This document shows positions 15,741 to 48,920 of a DNA stretch of 64,000 nt, in pieces. The notes beneath the pieces were generated by a model that was not told the DNA's origin, made no database searches, and saw only the letters and a list, made by a program, of their open reading frames with translations. A program made the translations under genes and the position numbers. Every line of letters starts with the position of its first letter. Position 1 is the stretch's first letter. The stretch comes from Treponema sp. (GTDB lineage: Bacteria; Spirochaetota; Spirochaetia; Treponematales; Breznakiellaceae). Location: positions 1-64,000 of the forward strand of contig WRMC01000011.1 of the NCBI GenBank assembly GCA_009777335.1, read 5' to 3'.

Positions 15741-16715
15741 GTGGTAGATGTGGTAGGTGTAGGCGGGGCGGTCTTAGATCACCTGATTAATGTGGACCAG
15801 GTTCCTGCCGGGAAAGACGGGGGTGCCCGGGTCCATGAGATGTTCCTTCAGGGGGGCGGCAATGTGGCCACCGCCATGGCTGCAGCGGCCCGGCTGGGGG
15901 CCAAGGCAGGGATGCTCGCCAAGGTGGGTTCTGACTTTGCCGGTGATTATATCATTAAAGATTTTAACTACAACGGAGTGGATACTTCCCGGATGATCCG
16001 GGGGGCCCCCGATACCACCAGCCCCTATGTGGTGGCCGTATCCGAAAAGGTAAGCAACACCCGGTTTTTCATGGGCCGGGGCTCCACCATAGAACGGCTT
16101 CAGCCCGAAGAGCTGGACAAGGAATACATCGCTGGGGCAAAGATCCTACATGTGGATCACGGGGGCCCCACCCCCACGGCGGCGGCAGAATATGCCCGTT
16201 CCCAGGGCCTTCAGGTTACCATCGATGCAGGATACTACAGCCAGGACCGGGTGGACATCATCCCCCTGGTCCATGTCTACATAGCCTCGGAAATGTTCTA
16301 TGACGGCATGTTCCCCGATTCCAAGGACAAGCTGGAAGATAACTGCCGGAAGCTCCATGACATGGGCCCCGAGGTCGTCTGGGTCACCCTGGGGGAACGG
16401 GGCTGCGTGGGCCTGGTGGACGGCAAGTTCCACACCCTCCCGGCCTTTAAGATCCCCGAGGTGGTCGATACCGTCGGGGCCGGGGATGTCTTCCACGGCG
16501 CCTATGTGGCCGCCATGCTGGAGGGATTACCCCCGGTGGAATGTGCCCGCTATTCCAGTGCCGTATCTGCCCTTAAGTGCATGTATGTGGGGGGCAGGAC
16601 GGGGATCCCCAACCGGGAGACCCTGCGGCGTTTTATGGAAGAGGGGGTCATAGACCGGACAGAGCTGGATGCCCGGCTCGAATATTATCGAAAAGACTTT
16701 TTAGCCACTAGGTAA
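15741..16715 (+). CDS. PfkB-family sugar kinase
   Basis: 324 residues, GTG start with TATGGAGG upstream. Ribokinase-fold motifs: GGAVLDHLINVDQVP, QGGGNVATAMAAAARLG, KVGSDFAGDYI and the ATP-site DTVGAGDVFHGAYVAA. It phosphorylates a sugar or nucleoside with ATP; the specific substrate is not evident. The genes that follow (an aldo-keto reductase after 27 bp, then a carrier sharing one base) suggest a small sugar or polyol uptake operon. Confidence 0.85.
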   Translation: MVDVVGVGGAVLDHLINVDQVPAGKDGGARVHEMFLQGGGNVATAMAAAARLGAKAGMLAKVGSDFAGDYIIKDFNYNGVDTSRMIRGAPDTTSPYVVAVSEKVSNTRFFMGRGSTIERLQPEELDKEYIAGAKILHVDHGGPTPTAAAEYARSQGLQVTIDAGYYSQDRVDIIPLVHVYIASEMFYDGMFPDSKDKLEDNCRKLHDMGPEVVWVTLGERGCVGLVDGKFHTLPAFKIPEVVDTVGAGDVFHGAYVAAMLEGLPPVECARYSSAVSALKCMYVGGRTGIPNRETLRRFMEEGVIDRTELDARLEYYRKDFLATR

Positions 16716-16742
16716 AGAATATTTTTTAAGGAGCGTGTTAGT

Positions 16743-17699
16743 ATGAGGTTCAAAAAACTAGGAAAGACAGATGTCATGGTTTCTGAGATTACCACCGGAA
16801 CCTGGGGTTTAGGCGGCGGCGGCTGGGGCGAATTTGATAAAGCCGCCAGTTTAAAGGCCCTTAACACCATGGCTGACCTGGGGGTCAACATGATCGACAC
16901 CGCCCCGGTCTACGGCGACGGGGTATCGGAAGAAATCACCGGCGAATTCCTTAAGGGAAAGCGGGAAAAGATCATCGTTTCGACCAAGTGCGGCATCGAC
17001 ATCGATGCTCCCCGGGGCGAGAACAGAAGAAAATCCACCGAAGAAGTCATAGTCCGGGGCTGCGAAGGTTCCCTTAAGCGGCTGGACACCGACTACATTG
17101 ATGTCTTTTTTGTCCACTGGCCGGATCCGGATACACCCCTGGAAATCACCATGGGCGCCCTCAACAAGCTTAAAGAGCAGGGAAAGATTCGCTACATTGG
17201 CATGTCCAACTTTAATGTGGAGCTGTTAACCGAATGCACCAAGCACGGTGTGGTCGATGTTCTCCAGCCCCCCTTCTCCATGGTTGATCAATCCGCCAAG
17301 GACATAATGGTCTGGGCCCATCAGCAGGGCATCTCCAGTGTTACCTATGGATCTATCGGTGCCGGTATCTTAAGCGGCCAGTATCGTTCCCTTCCTGAAC
17401 TGCGTGAAAGGGATGTCCGGGGCAGCTTCTACGGCAAGCTCTTTAAGGAGCCCGGCTTCTCCAAGGTCCAGGAGCTTCTGTCCGCCATGGACAAGATCGC
17501 CGAGGCCAGGAAGGTTCCCCTTACCCAGATTGCTATCAACTGGGTCTGCCAGAAAGAGTATGTCCTTACGGCCCTCATCGGGGTAAGGACCGATGCTCAT
17601 GCCAAAGAAAACTGTGCCGCCATGGATTGGTCCTTAACTCAGGACGAAATTAAGATCCTGGATGCCGAAGTTGAACGCCTCTTTGGATCGGTAGATTAA
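16743..17699 (+). CDS. Aldo-keto reductase
   Basis: 318 residues forming a TIM-barrel NADPH oxidoreductase. The catalytic tetrad can be read: Asp and Tyr in MIDTAPVYGDG, Lys in IVSTKCGID and His in VFFVHWPDPD. Later motifs are IRYIGMSNFN and the cofactor-binding C-terminal region ALIGVRTDAH. It reduces or oxidises a sugar aldehyde or ketone; the context suggests the same substrate as the kinase and carrier. The stop TAA shares an A with the ATG of the MFS gene (TAATG). Confidence 0.9.
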   Translation: MRFKKLGKTDVMVSEITTGTWGLGGGGWGEFDKAASLKALNTMADLGVNMIDTAPVYGDGVSEEITGEFLKGKREKIIVSTKCGIDIDAPRGENRRKSTEEVIVRGCEGSLKRLDTDYIDVFFVHWPDPDTPLEITMGALNKLKEQGKIRYIGMSNFNVELLTECTKHGVVDVLQPPFSMVDQSAKDIMVWAHQQGISSVTYGSIGAGILSGQYRSLPELRERDVRGSFYGKLFKEPGFSKVQELLSAMDKIAEARKVPLTQIAINWVCQKEYVLTALIGVRTDAHAKENCAAMDWSLTQDEIKILDAEVERLFGSVD

Positions 17700-43205: not shown

Positions 43206-43338
43206 CTGGTATACTCCTTCCATTGTTTATCTTCTATATGGTAACTCATTGGTCTATCAGGGAGTGAGAGATCAAGAGGAGAATTTCTGATAAAAAAGTA
43301 TAAAACAAATTAAATTTTATGGTAAAATAGCCTATTAG

Positions 43339-43620
43339 GAGGTAGAGCAGTACCTCCAGGCAGTGGAGAATGCGGACCATAAGGAGTACGGTGGTATGTT
43401 TGAAGCGGCAATTGAAAGCATCCTTGAGGAGCGGGAAGAGGCCAGAGCTGCGGGTAAAGCTCAAGGTAAAGCTGAAGGCATTACTGAAGGAGCTGAACAG
43501 AAAGCTCTGGAGATAGCCCAAGCTATGGTGGATTTGAATCTCCCCCTTGAGACCATAGTAGTTGCTACTAAGCTAGATCCTCAGCAGATAGAAAAGTTGG
43601 TGACGAAGAAAGGGTTGTAG
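43339..43620 (+). pseudogene. Rpn-family C-terminal remnant
   Basis: A 93-codon frame with no proper start. It matches the last third of the intact Rpn gene at 44944-45945 (EEVEQYLxAVExADHKEYGG, then AIESILEEREEARA), including near-identical DNA for about 110 bp, then diverges with its own tail (EGAEQKALEIAQAM). This is the stump of a second Rpn gene, or a partial duplication. Confidence 0.8.
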
Positions 43621-43785
43621 GTTGCTGGGTATGGAAGGTATTGGAGAGTGTTTTTTGATGAGTACCACCATGGGGTCATTATCGACCGCTCTGAGTACAA
43701 TTCTGTGCTTGAAAATGTTTATTCTATCAGTGCGGGTACATTAAGTACACCAGTATTTAACAGTTACCCTGGGTGGTTTCGATGA
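43621..43785 (+). pseudogene. 54-codon fragment coupled to a secreted-protein gene
   Basis: An open frame directly after the Rpn stump's TAG, reading YGRYWRVFFDEYHHGVIIDR and ending FNSYPGWFR. It has no start codon in a good position. Its TGA overlaps the ATG at 43782 (ATGA). It looks like the last part of a larger gene, possibly a polymorphic toxin tip, followed by a coupled partner gene. No family is recognised. Confidence 0.35.
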
Positions 43786-44414
43786 AAATATTTTTTTTGC
43801 TATTAAATATATTTGTTCATAGTATGTTATTTGGGCAACGTATAACTATTAATGAATTCCGCGAATTGTCATTGGAAAATAAAGTTGAATACTATTTTGA
43901 TAACTTTGTTGGTATTCCTCATAGAACAAGTCATTCATTATGGGCTGGTACCATTGTTTCCCATCATGGCAAGGCTGTAGTCCCATATATTAAAGAACAA
44001 CTAAAAACAGCAACTTATTTCACGTATAGAGAAGAGCCAATAGATGACACTTTATCACTGATAGCTTATATATTATCAAGTTTAAACAGGGCATCTCTTT
44101 ACCCTCAATATTATCTATCAAGTGGTGTACCAGAATTTATATTATATGAAGAAGAAATTCGATGGTTTTACAATGAATACATGAAACGTATCAATGAGTA
44201 TGTTTTATTATATAGAATAATAGATGAAAACGTGATGCTTAATATGATTCATATCAGTTTTATTGCTAGAAATCAAGAGGACCTTTTTCAATTTTTTGGT
44301 TATCCTTATTATCGAGGTATACCCGTAAATTTACAAGGTAATGAAATGAAAAAATTTTTTGAAGAAAGACTTGGCATTCAGAATTTATTAATTACCATTC
44401 CTTATATAGAATGA
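43782..44414 (+). CDS. Exported protein of unknown function, possible immunity protein
   Basis: 210 residues. The N-terminus is a short signal peptide (MKIFFLLLNIFVHSMLFGQ), and the mature part is helical and aromatic-rich (YYFDNFVGIPHRTSH, IRWFYNEYMKRI). It is very AT-rich and lies in a toxin-like neighbourhood. The ATGA overlap with the preceding fragment is the usual arrangement of a toxin with its immunity protein. Three upstream codons (ATG 43773) are alternative. No known domain is recognised. Confidence 0.5.
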   Translation: MKIFFLLLNIFVHSMLFGQRITINEFRELSLENKVEYYFDNFVGIPHRTSHSLWAGTIVSHHGKAVVPYIKEQLKTATYFTYREEPIDDTLSLIAYILSSLNRASLYPQYYLSSGVPEFILYEEEIRWFYNEYMKRINEYVLLYRIIDENVMLNMIHISFIARNQEDLFQFFGYPYYRGIPVNLQGNEMKKFFEERLGIQNLLITIPYIE

Positions 44415-44493: not shown

Positions 44494-44667
44494 ATGATTA
44501 GTGGATTTTTAATGATAACAATTGGAATTAATTTTTTATTAATAGGATATAATATTGTTAAAATGAAATGGAAAGATGAGAAAATAAAGATGAAACATGA
44601 ATCCAAATTTAGGAAATTAGGATTTTTGTTCTTAATTTTTGGTATATTTCGAATTATTTTGAATTAA
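44494..44667 (+). CDS. Small two-span membrane protein (57 aa)
   Basis: 57 residues: a first hydrophobic span (FLMITIGINFLLIGYNIV), a basic loop (KMKWKDEKIKMKHESKFRK) and a second span (LGFLFLIFGIFRIIL). Ribosome site AAGGAAG precedes ATG 44494. It is in the AT-rich part of the island, 79 bp after the exported protein. It could belong to the same toxin/immunity cassette. Function unknown. Confidence 0.5.
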   Translation: MISGFLMITIGINFLLIGYNIVKMKWKDEKIKMKHESKFRKLGFLFLIFGIFRIILN

Positions 44668-44687
44668 AATAAAAACAGCTATAATAA

Positions 44688-44843
44688 TCAAGGTAGCTTC
44701 TCAGATAGATATGCACCAAAAACCCATGCTTCTTGATCTTCTATTTTATACCAATGGTCTACATGTCCATCGATAGTATCAGATCCCAGGGGAATTAAAT
44801 TTGCTTTTATATTTCCATTTTGTATTAGAAAAATCAAAAAACT
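44688..44843 (-). pseudogene. Remnant resembling the end of a bacterial SH3-domain protein
   Basis: A 51-codon stop-to-stop frame with no start. It ends DGHVDHWYKIEDQEAWVFGA, which fits the end of bacterial SH3_3 domains (WYKV...GWVFGxYLS). Upstream the frame is broken by a stop. This is probably a decayed lipoprotein gene cut by rearrangement of the island. Confidence 0.4.
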
Positions 44844-44943
44844 CTAATTTATCCAATGAAGAAGGATGTATAAAAATATTTAGAAATTCCTTCAATTTCG
44901 AAGTAAAATGCAATTTCTCCTCCGTATAGGTATAGGAGGATAT

Positions 44944-45945
44944 ATGGCTCTCTACCATACAGCGGACAACACCTTTAAACGGATCTTTAGTAATAACCAG
45001 CTCTTTGCTGAGTTCATTAAGGACTTCATCCACATTGACCTATTACAGGACATTCAACCCGAGGACATCGAGGATCTAAGTGAACGGTTCCTGCCTCTCT
45101 TCCAGGAACAGAGGGATGCGGATACGGTAAAGCGTATCAATTTAAAGACAGAAACTCCCCTCTTTGTCATAACCATCCTGGAACATGAGTCAAAGGTAAA
45201 TTACCGGGCCAGTTTTAAGATGCTCCAGTACATAAGCCTGGTCTTAGATAACTGGGAAAAGGAGGCAGAAAGAGAAGATCCTGGCTCTTCCTTTCGAAAA
45301 GACTTCAAGTACCCTCCAGTATTGCCTATTGTGTTCTATGACGGGAAGGATACCTGGACAGCGGAGCGAAATTTTCTTAACCGGACCCATCTAAGCGATG
45401 TTTTTGAGAAATATATCCCCAAATTTGAGTATGAACTGGTTAACCTAAATGACCATAGCGTAGAAGGGGTAATGAATTTTAAGGATGCCTTGTCGTTACT
45501 GCTCTTGGTTGATAAAATCCGAAAGTCCAATGATCCTAATCTATTACCCCTACCTTCTGATTACCTTGAGGCATTACGCTTGCAAATTCCTGACAATCTG
45601 GGTAAGCTTATTAATGATGTAATTAGGGTTTTCTTGGCTCAGAGCGGCATAGCCCGGGAGGAGGTAGAGCAGTACCTCCTGGCAGTGGAGAAGGCGGACC
45701 ATAAGGAGTACGGTGGTATGTTTGAAGCGGCAATCGAGAGCATCCTGGAAGAACGAGAAGAAGCCAGAGCTGAGGGTAGAGCCGAAGGCAAAGCTGAGGG
45801 TAGAGTTGAAGGCGAAGCCGAGGGTGTGGAAAAACAAAGACGAGAGGTTTTGGATTTAATTGCGAGCGGTAAGACACTGGAGGAGATTCAAGCTCTACTA
45901 ACCGGAGGACAGAATAATTCTGGCCATAACTTGCCGTTACAATAA
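44944..45945 (+). CDS. Rpn-family nuclease/transposase-like protein
   Basis: 333 residues from ATG 44944, with GGAGGATAT upstream. N-terminal PD-(D/E)XK-like domain: ADNTFKRIFSNNQLFAEFI, then FVITILEHESKVN and PPVLPIVFYDG. The C-terminus carries the Glu-Ala-Gly low-complexity repeat (EARAEGRAEGKAEGRVEGEA) common in Rpn proteins, then a short helix (DLIASGKTLEEIQALL). Rpn proteins promote recombination and show nuclease activity in E. coli RpnA; their roles vary. The stop is followed directly by the truncated RHS gene, which suggests insertion into it. Confidence 0.8.
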   Translation: MALYHTADNTFKRIFSNNQLFAEFIKDFIHIDLLQDIQPEDIEDLSERFLPLFQEQRDADTVKRINLKTETPLFVITILEHESKVNYRASFKMLQYISLVLDNWEKEAEREDPGSSFRKDFKYPPVLPIVFYDGKDTWTAERNFLNRTHLSDVFEKYIPKFEYELVNLNDHSVEGVMNFKDALSLLLLVDKIRKSNDPNLLPLPSDYLEALRLQIPDNLGKLINDVIRVFLAQSGIAREEVEQYLLAVEKADHKEYGGMFEAAIESILEEREEARAEGRAEGKAEGRVEGEAEGVEKQRREVLDLIASGKTLEEIQALLTGGQNNSGHNLPLQ

Positions 45946-45946
45946 A

Positions 45947-46996
45947 TACCAGCTAAGCAACACCCGGACCAGCGGAAGGTCTGTGACCCTTTATGCCCGC
46001 GGCGAGGCCGTGGCGGTGTCCTACAGCAGCAGCAGTACGAATAGGTCTGTCTACCTGGGCAAGGACATTATGGGGAGTGTCCGTTCCACCAGCACTGCCA
46101 CGGGGGTAATAGATGACAGGTTTGATTACACTGCCGGGCCCGCTAGGGCCCCTTCAATCCTTCCTATCGGTGCGCGGCCCGAAGGGACGCACGATGTCTT
46201 TGGGCAGCCCTTCCAGGGGGACTTAGATGGCCTTATGAACCTGGGCTACATGAGTAAGCCCTACGAGAGTGTTACAGGGCTCTACAACTATGGCTTTAGG
46301 GACTACCGGCCCCAGCAGGCCCGCTTTACCACCCCAGACCCCATTAGGGATGGGAACAACTGGTTTGCCTATGTTAACAATGACCCGGTGAACTATGTCG
46401 ACTTGTGGGGGTTGTGTAAGGAGGATGTAAGACAATTTAAATTTAATTCATTTCAAGTTGGTCAAGATTTGACTGGTTCAAATTTTATTGACTATTTTAT
46501 TAACAATGGCAATACAGCAAAATTTATATATGACGGTGGTGGAGGTTCTATGTATGTTGAACCGTCTTATGCGCTACCCTCTTCATCTTCACCACAAACT
46601 CCACAAAATAATCCAAATTCTGAAAATTTTGAACGGCTACTTGCTGGTAGATTAGGTTTTATATCTAATCATAACGAAAGTATCTTATATGATAATAATG
46701 GCAACCAAATAGCTATAATTCAACATGATTATAATACTAAGCAAATTGGTTTTACAGACGACGAAAAATATTTATGGTTTGTATCAAATAGACTACGGCC
46801 GATACTGCCAGGTGAACAACCCTTTTATCCTTTTATTCCAAATTTTCCTTCTATTCCTTGTAACTACATAATGATCTTTAATGTTACTGATGGTGAATTT
46901 ATACAAGCTTACTCCACCATGGAAAATGATTTTATATTTAAAATTGATGATAACCAATATAGAATAAACACAACACCGCCTGATTTACCGGGTTAG
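45947..46996 (+). pseudogene. RHS/YD-repeat C-terminus with variable tip; 5' end missing
   Basis: The frame has no proper start and opens directly after the Rpn stop with YQLSNTRTSGRS. Residues of the RHS core follow: YLGKDIMGSVRSTS, and GLYNYGFRDYRPQQARFTTP with NNDPVNYVDLWGL near 46400. After that point the DNA turns AT-rich, and the rest (190 or so residues, ending TTPPDLPG) is an unrelated tip. This is the standard layout of a polymorphic toxin. The N-terminal shell is missing, so it cannot be exported as such. The tip has no recognised toxin domain. Confidence 0.75.
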
Positions 46997-47462
46997 GTAC
47001 TGCCAAGTATCTTTCGCAAATTGATTTGCAGCCATATGAAAAATTAAGCTACATAAGGCGGCTTTCTTCTATCACCTTACTATGGATAATGACGGTACTA
47101 CATTGGCTATACCATGCAGGCAGTATTCGATGATCATCTTCTATCGAACCACCCGTATCTTTCAACGCTGGTGCTGCAAAAATACCTGGCGGCGATTTCG
47201 CCTGACTACACAACCAACGTGAAAGTGAAGCCAAGGCAAATCACAGAAATACGTTTGAATACCAGTTGTGTAGTCAGGGCGCTGGAGCCGACAGGAACCC
47301 CCACCGAACGAGTGTATACGAGTGAGGTTCCCTTCTGGCGATTGTTTGCTGACCAGCGAGAGGGGACTTGGTGGGTGTTCGTTAAATTAGGCATGTTTTT
47401 GTCCAGCGGTGAAGGGATAATGAGGTCTTGGCTTAGATGCGCTGTATTTAAACCTGCCTACC
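46997..47462. other. Intergenic tail of the island; no intact gene, inverted repeat inside
   Basis: About 465 bp with no convincing gene in either strand. Short fragments (such as KYLSQIDLQPYEKLSYIRR near the start) may be decayed coding sequence. The inverted repeat CCTGACTACACAAC (47201-47214) with GTTGTGTAGTCAGG (47265-47278) is perfect over 14 bp with a 50-nt gap. Confidence 0.5.
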
Positions 47463-48920
47463 CTACTTTGGAGCCCGTCTTTGTACTAAACCCTTGTTCT
47501 GCCATTTCCCCGAGATAAAGTAGATCATTATCAAAGCGCCTCCGAAGGCCATGGAGATGCCCATGGCGTGGAAGAGGCCCATGTAGTGTTCCAGCCCCGC
47601 CCCGGCGGCCCTGGCCAGTTCGGCGGTGGCATAGAGCCCCGCAGAAACTGCTTCTTCGACAGAATGAAGGAGGGGCAATACGGCCATGAAGTAGGCCAGG
47701 GGGATCCGGATGAGGCTTCCCAGGATAGCTACCACCGCAGGATAATTGGCTTCCCCGGCACCCCGGATGGCACCCCCGGCGGTGGCGTTAATGCCCATGC
47801 AGATATAAAAAAAGGCAATAAATCTAATGCCGTTATACCCCATCTCGAGGACCGGGACATTGTCGGTGAAGGCCCGCATCAGATAGAACCCGAAGTTGTA
47901 CATCACCACCCCCATAAGGAGGGAGAGGCCGCTGACAATGAGGAGGGAGATATGGGCCCCCCGCTTGGCCCGCTCTATATCGCCGGCCCCTATGTTCTGG
48001 CCCACGAAGGTGGTTACCGCCATCCCCAGGCCCATGAAGGGCATCATGACAAAGCCGTCTACCCGCTGGATGATCCCCTGGGCGGCTATATAGTTGGAGC
48101 CAAAGTTGTTGGCCAGGGACTGGATGATCACCATCCCCAGAGACATGGCGCCGTTTTGGATGGAGGTGGGGATCCCCAGCCGAAAGATGATCTTGATGAT
48201 CGCCTTGTCAACATTCCTCATCCCCGTCAGGGTAAGGCGGAAGCCATACTTGCCGGTGATAAACCGGGACAGGAGGATCATCCCCGATACAAAGTGGGAA
48301 AGCATGGTTGCAATAGCCACCCCCGGCACCCCCCAGCCAAAGACGATGACAAAGAGGAGATCCAATAGGATGTTTAAGACGCTGGAAATAATAAGGGAGT
48401 AGAGGGGCCAGCGGGCGTCCCCCAGACCCCTTAGAAGGCCGTTACCCAGGGCAAAGAAGACGTTCCCGGTGGTGCCGATGAAGACTATCATTAAATACAT
48501 GGCCGAGTCGTTGAGTATATTGTCGGGGGTTCCCAGAAGATGGAGGAGGGGCCTTGAGGCCACCAGGCCCGTCATGGAGACGCAGAAGCCTATGACCAGG
48601 CAGAGGGTAAAGGTGGTGTTGATGGCCCTCTCGGTGGCCTCGTGATCCCCGGCCCCCCGGTACTGTGAGATGAGGATGTTGGCCCCCATGGAAAGCCCCA
48701 TGAAGAGGGCGTTAAAGAGCATCATGATGGGAAAGCTCACCGCCACCGCCGCCAGGGCATCGGAGCCCACAAAGTTACCGACGATGATAGAGTCAGCCAC
48801 ATTGTAAAGCTGCATGATAATATTCCCCGCGATGATGGGCAGGGCAAAGCCGATAAGCTTTTGGGTAATGGGCCCCTTGGTGAGATCGGTGCGCGGTGAC
48901 ATCCTTATGGCTGATGACAT
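47463..48920 (-). CDS. MATE-family efflux transporter
   Basis: 485 residues, twelve spans in two halves. The first half begins GFALPIIAGNIIMQLYNVAD and the second contains RLGIPTSIQNGAMSLGM. Start ATG 48920 has GGAGGATTTC upstream. It lies 16 bp after the marR gene and is expected to be controlled by it. It is not closely related to the carrier at 39 kb. Confidence 0.9.
   Translation of the reverse strand: MSSAIRMSPRTDLTKGPITQKLIGFALPIIAGNIIMQLYNVADSIIVGNFVGSDALAAVAVSFPIMMLFNALFMGLSMGANILISQYRGAGDHEATERAINTTFTLCLVIGFCVSMTGLVASRPLLHLLGTPDNILNDSAMYLMIVFIGTTGNVFFALGNGLLRGLGDARWPLYSLIISSVLNILLDLLFVIVFGWGVPGVAIATMLSHFVSGMILLSRFITGKYGFRLTLTGMRNVDKAIIKIIFRLGIPTSIQNGAMSLGMVIIQSLANNFGSNYIAAQGIIQRVDGFVMMPFMGLGMAVTTFVGQNIGAGDIERAKRGAHISLLIVSGLSLLMGVVMYNFGFYLMRAFTDNVPVLEMGYNGIRFIAFFYICMGINATAGGAIRGAGEANYPAVVAILGSLIRIPLAYFMAVLPLLHSVEEAVSAGLYATAELARAAGAGLEHYMGLFHAMGISMAFGGALIMIYFISGKWQNKGLVQRRAPK

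Follow-up and report, generated by a model that had tools for sequence, protein, structure and literature searches.

The window, by which we mean the whole 64,000-nucleotide stretch of Treponema sp. DNA that was analysed, lies on contig C11 of genome G000, a 77%-complete assembly in 28 contigs. Between an Rpn gene and a dispersed repeat it carries an open reading frame made up of a fragment of RHS core and a variable tip, with the following features.

44944..45945, plus strand: Rpn gene (PF04754), 333 aa
45902..46996, plus strand: RHS open reading frame, open to its stop at 46994-46996, in a frame different from that of Rpn
45941..46414, plus strand: RHS core fragment, up to 158 aa, with DLWGL at its end (46414)
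46127..46189, plus strand: in-frame insertion of 21 aa (63 bp) in the core
46415..46630, plus strand: opening 72 residues of the tip, rich in AT, unplaced, pLDDT ~30
46631..46993, plus strand: final 121 residues of the tip, with homology to free-standing exported proteins (their C-terminal half)
47049..47467, no strand assigned: dispersed repeat in the flank, outside the cassette

The Rpn gene and its joint with RHS

The upstream gene belongs to the Rpn family by PF04754 (E 3.8e-19; 69.5 bits, above the gathering score of 21) and is up to 58% identical to its relatives. Its start was set at the ATG near which the homologues start aligning; the longer open reading frame has 345 aa, and the better relatives align from residue 8-20 of it, with C-termini that end similarly. 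Four-residue AEGx repeats stand close to the C-terminus, whose length is normal and within the range of the relatives; in several of these the protein stops at the aligned end or runs on for up to ~15 residues. The gene stops with TAA at 45943-45945, and the RHS frame, open from 45902, enters there in mid-protein, as the initial annotation had described. The first start codon listed in this frame is a GTG at 45983, with the Rpn stop 38 nt upstream, and some translation behind Rpn from this codon is possible; the frame is uninterrupted for 337 codons. The point at which RHS homology sets in varies with the relative compared, between 45941 and ~46001 (45965 or 45971 against the 1872-aa RHS protein of genome G034), and because a variable linker stands just before the homology, the joint between Rpn and RHS can be resolved to ~60 nt at best. 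A scan of 44650-47500 gave nine promoter-like sites, against a shuffle mean of 5.9, and on the minus strand a single terminator-like site, against a mean of 3.1, and is uninformative.

Upstream of Rpn, on the minus strand at 44688-44843, there is a short open remnant that resembles the end of an SH3-type domain. The AT-rich open reading frame at 43773-44414 (213 aa) has an exported-type N-terminus and a sub-threshold Pfam match to DUF7222 (E 0.0085), and is perhaps another orphan immunity-type gene. A separate 85-aa open reading frame (43363-43620) matches only the C-terminal part of Rpn, the stretch 43321-43533 being 66% identical to residues 246-316 of the neighbouring Rpn with one internal stop; it resembles a solitary RpnS, which the accessible text of PMC10327210 describes as the small C-terminal antitoxin of Rpn.

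The RHS core fragment and a second copy

The RHS core was recognized by TIGR03696, by tblastn matches to relatives and by a near-identical second copy in the same genome (G000:C16:1-279). TIGR03696 covers residues 86-158 of the frame with 58.6 bits against a curated cut-off of 32.5, and the relatives of the core that carry names come from Treponema, Spirochaetaceae and Spirochaetia records. The N-terminal delivery region and repeat shell of a full-length RHS protein are missing, the homology starting at residue 1514 of the 1872-aa protein, and searches of three congeners and of the 77%-complete genome itself brought up no RHS body. Searched against Pfam up to E 1, the frame (45902-46996) had no family listed. 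In PHROGs the matches were weak and to families of unknown function (E 0.0032 at best, for the core, and one of E 0.075 for the tip), the viral contigs searched returned 0 matches, and a plasmid search returned two distant ones, both to the RHS core and one of them annotated as RHS. Flank searches in 19 genomes, the own genome included, gave only partial, gene-level matches.

Alignment showed that both G000 copies of the core have the 63-bp insertion and that five copies chosen from other species are without it. The insertion holds short palindromic stretches, and contig C16 begins within it. The C16 copy, which starts at base 1 of its contig, is identical to the window core at 266 of 279 bases; the first 87 bases are the same as in the window and mismatches occur only after them. 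With TIGR03696 it scores 59.5 bits. Its tip, unlike that of the window, is an M23 peptidase (PF01551, E 3.6e-11) and is followed by a 200-aa open reading frame with a lipoprotein-like start. We regard core, tip and following frame (locus L003, 1-1500) as a candidate RHS toxin that would degrade peptidoglycan, paired with an exported protein for immunity. The initial annotation had named an intact RHS gene elsewhere, with the same upstream sequence, as the sign of a simple duplication; the sole second core copy in G000 starts at a contig edge.

Truncated RHS copies in related spirochaetes

A search of 145 family genomes for the RHS frame gave matches in 12, of which 10 match the core and two the tip only. 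As a yardstick we used the G034 protein, the longest RHS frame among the loci read. At 14 other loci, which include the second copy of G000 and two that overlap, the core pieces start at G034 residues 1273-1598, compared with 1514 for the window copy, except for three weaker matches at 1021-1245 (one each at L033, L035 and L036); several of these loci are cut by contig edges, so some of the starts are no true truncation. At L033, L061, L062 and L063 upstream sequence is present and the core still begins late (G019 and G051 were left out of this reading), and at L061 (G056) and L036 (G032) there are arrays of truncated core, tip and a small protein with an exported-type start. The RHS copies read in related spirochaetes are thus for the most part 5′-truncated, with tips of their own and in most cases a small, frequently exported protein behind them; truncation is ordinary for these cassettes and not special to Rpn.

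L061 (G056:C21:30001-50000) holds six truncated RHS cores with differing tips and a small open reading frame behind each, four of the six passing our hydropathy rule for an exported start. Its open reading frame at 15904-17151 places a signal-like start ahead of an RHS core, a chimera of the reverse kind. The clustering of 5′ ends at G034 residues 1509-1540 is partly due to the variable linker that precedes the homology, and we claim no recombination site there.

Composition and build of the tip

Behind DLWGL the GC content drops from 0.56 (46100-46399) to 0.33 (46400-46699), and Pfam, NCBIfam and PADLOC gave no match besides the RHS core, in agreement with the sharp composition change and the lack of a recognised domain noted initially; the C-terminal half of the tip alone has a sub-cut-off Pfam match to DUF3823 (E 0.13). 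The description of the tip as an orphan has to be given up: three relatives have exported proteins whose C-terminal half is matched by the last 121 of the 193 tip residues. Searches with the single protein aligned residues 228-348 with a protein of G088 (42% identical) and residues 228-347 with one of G133 (36%), with E-values of 3.2e-24 and 2.1e-16, and a profile search added G237 as the third exported relative. Across the aligned tip the identity to the relatives is 33-36%, and the RHS frame ends where the exported proteins end. A four-row profile at E 0.01 matched four of 195 family genomes, the own genome included, and a three-row profile at E 0.001 matched five of 390 genomes of the order, one of them weakly. 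Weak profile matches to G328 (E 5.7e-4) and to an exported-type open reading frame in G000:C14 (E 0.003) carry no weight in the argument. No other RHS protein among the 195 family genomes searched carries the window tip.

Pairwise comparison separated the two parts of the tip. The C-terminal half scored 238, 183 and 205 against the three relatives, and the N-terminal halves of these relatives scored 77, 92 and 162 against each other, none of 1000 shuffles being as high in any of the comparisons. The first 72 residues scored 19, 22 and 21 against the N-terminal halves of the relatives, values that 1882, 1333 and 1971 of 2000 shuffles reached as well; read in its two other frames, the same DNA did no better than chance (214-651 of 1000 codon shuffles as high). 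With no signal in any of the three frames, no frameshifted remnant is seen in this part, which by sequence also matched nothing in the PDB up to E 1. The window tip thus has neither the signal peptide nor the N-terminal half of the exported family, and, as far as alignment can tell, it is shown to be a chimera in which 72 unplaced residues precede a C-terminal half belonging to an exported protein family. The boundary would lie near 46631, its exact place depending on the method: single-protein matches begin at residue 228 (~46622), and in profiles that include the tip as a row its alignment begins further upstream, at 46484 or 46511. Less weight is given to the latter starts because the profile alignment forces the first part of the tip in.

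We discard a likeness between the first tip residues and the beginning of the G034 tip, as 40 of 1000 shuffles were as high. A match of the G034 tip in G000:C3 sits in an apparent phage lysis region.

The exported relatives and the downstream flank

The free-standing proteins of G088, G133 and G237 have 219-238 aa and a hydrophobic N-terminal segment that is signal-peptide-like or lipobox/lipoprotein-like. Their Pfam matches lie below the cut-offs (DUF6079, E 0.23; DUF5711, E 0.031), those of G088 and G133 had no match in NCBIfam, and no RHS gene was seen by eye beside any of the three genes in the stretches read. To see what usually stands behind an RHS tip, we took the longest open reading frame starting within 300 bases: at 25 of 25 tips examined elsewhere there is one of at least 60 aa, although a few look like chance frames and were kept in the count. 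By a crude hydropathy rule 17 of these 25 have a strongly hydrophobic N-terminus, compared with 33 of 112 other open reading frames of the same loci (Fisher p 0.0005). The exported relatives of the tip fit these proteins in size and N-terminus, and we infer that their family either is the immunity partner that usually stands behind a tip or is similar to it.

The predicted structures of the tip and of the G088 protein consist of beta-strand repeats. The tip model, of 189 residues, has a mean pLDDT of 57.8, its residues 1-74 being below 50, and the G088 model has 76.1; in Foldseek neither matched the PDB at E 0.001 or less. Among the best 20 fold matches of the low-confidence tip model, six are chains of the Tse1/Tsi1 complex (E 0.017-0.053, TM below 0.3, which of the two proteins being unstated), and those of the G088 model are mostly beta-propellers, all with VIA Z under 8. 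The family profile searched against PDB sequences up to E 1 gave one match (E 0.83), with Tsi1 absent. A Tsi1-like fold of the tip is therefore a hint only, taken from predicted models.

Behind the tip no plausible immunity gene follows, as the initial annotation had stated: the dispersed repeat begins at ~47049, and beyond it lies an opposite-strand gene, which from its sequence we presume to encode a MATE protein. The repeat has at least 79 further partial matches in its own genome, all within query positions 620-1038 and with 40 of 67 candidate places scored; some are split into two pieces on opposite strands, and within the repeat 47201-47214 and 47265-47278 form a perfect 14-nt inverted repeat. 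A 134-aa open reading frame (47114-47518) that spans the repeat had no Pfam match.

Discussion

The window holds a 3′ RHS fragment, with up to 158 aa of core and without the delivery part, of a kind common in the family. We give about an even chance to this locus being a degenerate orphan rhs cassette whose core has been fused in frame to the 3′ half of a gene for an exported, immunity-like protein. Arrays in the family run from truncated core to tip to a small, often exported protein; from such an arrangement, a deletion or an illegitimate recombination would have removed the toxin body, and the same event would have cut the signal peptide and the N-terminal half off the 5′ end of the exported gene, leaving the remaining 3′ half joined in frame to the RHS core. 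By this deletion model the remains of the immunity gene lie within the tip, and for that reason none follows the cassette. The 337 open codons, which are unusual for an old pseudogene, count against the degenerate state. As the product of the frame has neither delivery part nor signal peptide, it would be neither delivered nor exported and is probably non-toxic, and the cassette has most likely lost its function as a weapon; its core stretch could still provide the homology needed to recombine with another RHS gene.

The open frame and the sharp change in composition behind DLWGL, as in normal tips, together with the 33-36% identity to relatives over the aligned tip, would also suit an intact orphan RHS toxin tip whose C-terminal module is the effector or part of it, the exported proteins being secreted versions. 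We consider this unlikely, since no plausible immunity gene stands behind the tip while an open reading frame follows all 25 tips elsewhere, the homology to the relatives stops inside the tip, and the 195 family genomes are without such a tip on another RHS protein. At the other end of the core, the initial annotation had put the loss of the 5′ part down to replacement by the Rpn gene, or by DNA that carried it, which would have recombined with an intact RHS gene. What stands of this is that the 5′ part is missing and that Rpn DNA now occupies its place, the Rpn stop and the RHS homology abutting within ~60 nt, and the title of PMC5350276 links Rpn proteins with RecA-independent horizontal transfer. 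Rpn as the cause is improbable: RHS copies in the family are commonly truncated without Rpn, the other contigs with an RHS match in the family search had 0 Rpn matches, the Rpn C-terminus is normal, and rpn genes, according to the accessible text of PMC10327210, move horizontally but encode no conventional transposases. The Rpn gene is probably a neighbour that arrived independently.

The core being a repeat with at least two copies, the assembler may have attached the wrong upstream part to the window tip, joining the Rpn side of one copy to the tip of another. The assembly is ambiguous around 46136-46222, and the C16 copy, starting at base 1 with 87 identical bases, begins as a contig would at a branch of the assembly graph, so the link between the Rpn side and the tip rests on the assembler. 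Such an artefact is nevertheless quite improbable as an account of the locus, because the ambiguous stretch is followed by the chimeric tip, which would stand regardless, and preceded by the joint of Rpn and RHS, which is not at the contig edge. Very improbable, finally, is a functional new architecture in which the core, joined to an immunity-like module in place of a toxin, is translated behind Rpn from the GTG at 45983 and acts as a carried antidote or as a sponge for incoming toxins.

An unrecognised tip behind an RHS core thus need not be a new toxin; here one half of it is related to exported proteins of immunity type, and catalogues of tips that take whatever follows the core would class it as a toxin. 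Because the small proteins behind them often look exported, the family arrays point to an action outside the cytoplasm for many of the RHS tips of these spirochaetes.

The degenerate cassette that we favour can be set beside the orphan rhs-CT/rhsI modules of enterobacteria, as these are described in the accessible parts of PMC3150448 and PMC3967940. In both, a displaced 3′ rhs fragment keeps some of the conserved core and ends, past a sharp boundary, in a variable tip, and both are without the delivery part and the usual start signals, which orphan rhs fragments mostly lack. By the latter source, expression of the Salmonella orphan rhs frame requires recombination with the main rhs gene. The window cassette differs in having no small immunity gene directly behind it, for which reason we file it as a degenerate cassette only, in that the search of the assembly, which is 77% complete and has its second copy cut by a contig edge, found no main rhs gene, and in the relation of the C-terminal half of its tip to exported proteins. 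Tsi1 of Pseudomonas aeruginosa, in the accessible text of PMC3391265 an exported immunity protein with a fragmented beta-propeller, comes to mind because the tip model weakly resembles, in its fold, chains of the Tse1/Tsi1 complex, in which the Tsi1 chain is not specified; the window tip, in contrast, has no signal peptide and no known cognate toxin, and Tsi1 is not among the PDB sequence matches up to E 1. With the Rpn family (PF04754), as far as the available text of PMC10327210 describes it, the neighbouring gene shares the four-residue repeats near the C-terminus, whereas the RHS frame contains no Rpn part and Rpn is a separate gene. Orphan rhs cassettes are well known, and the window locus is an ordinary remnant of this sort except for one joint, that of an RHS core with half of an exported, immunity-like protein, which in these data is unusual.
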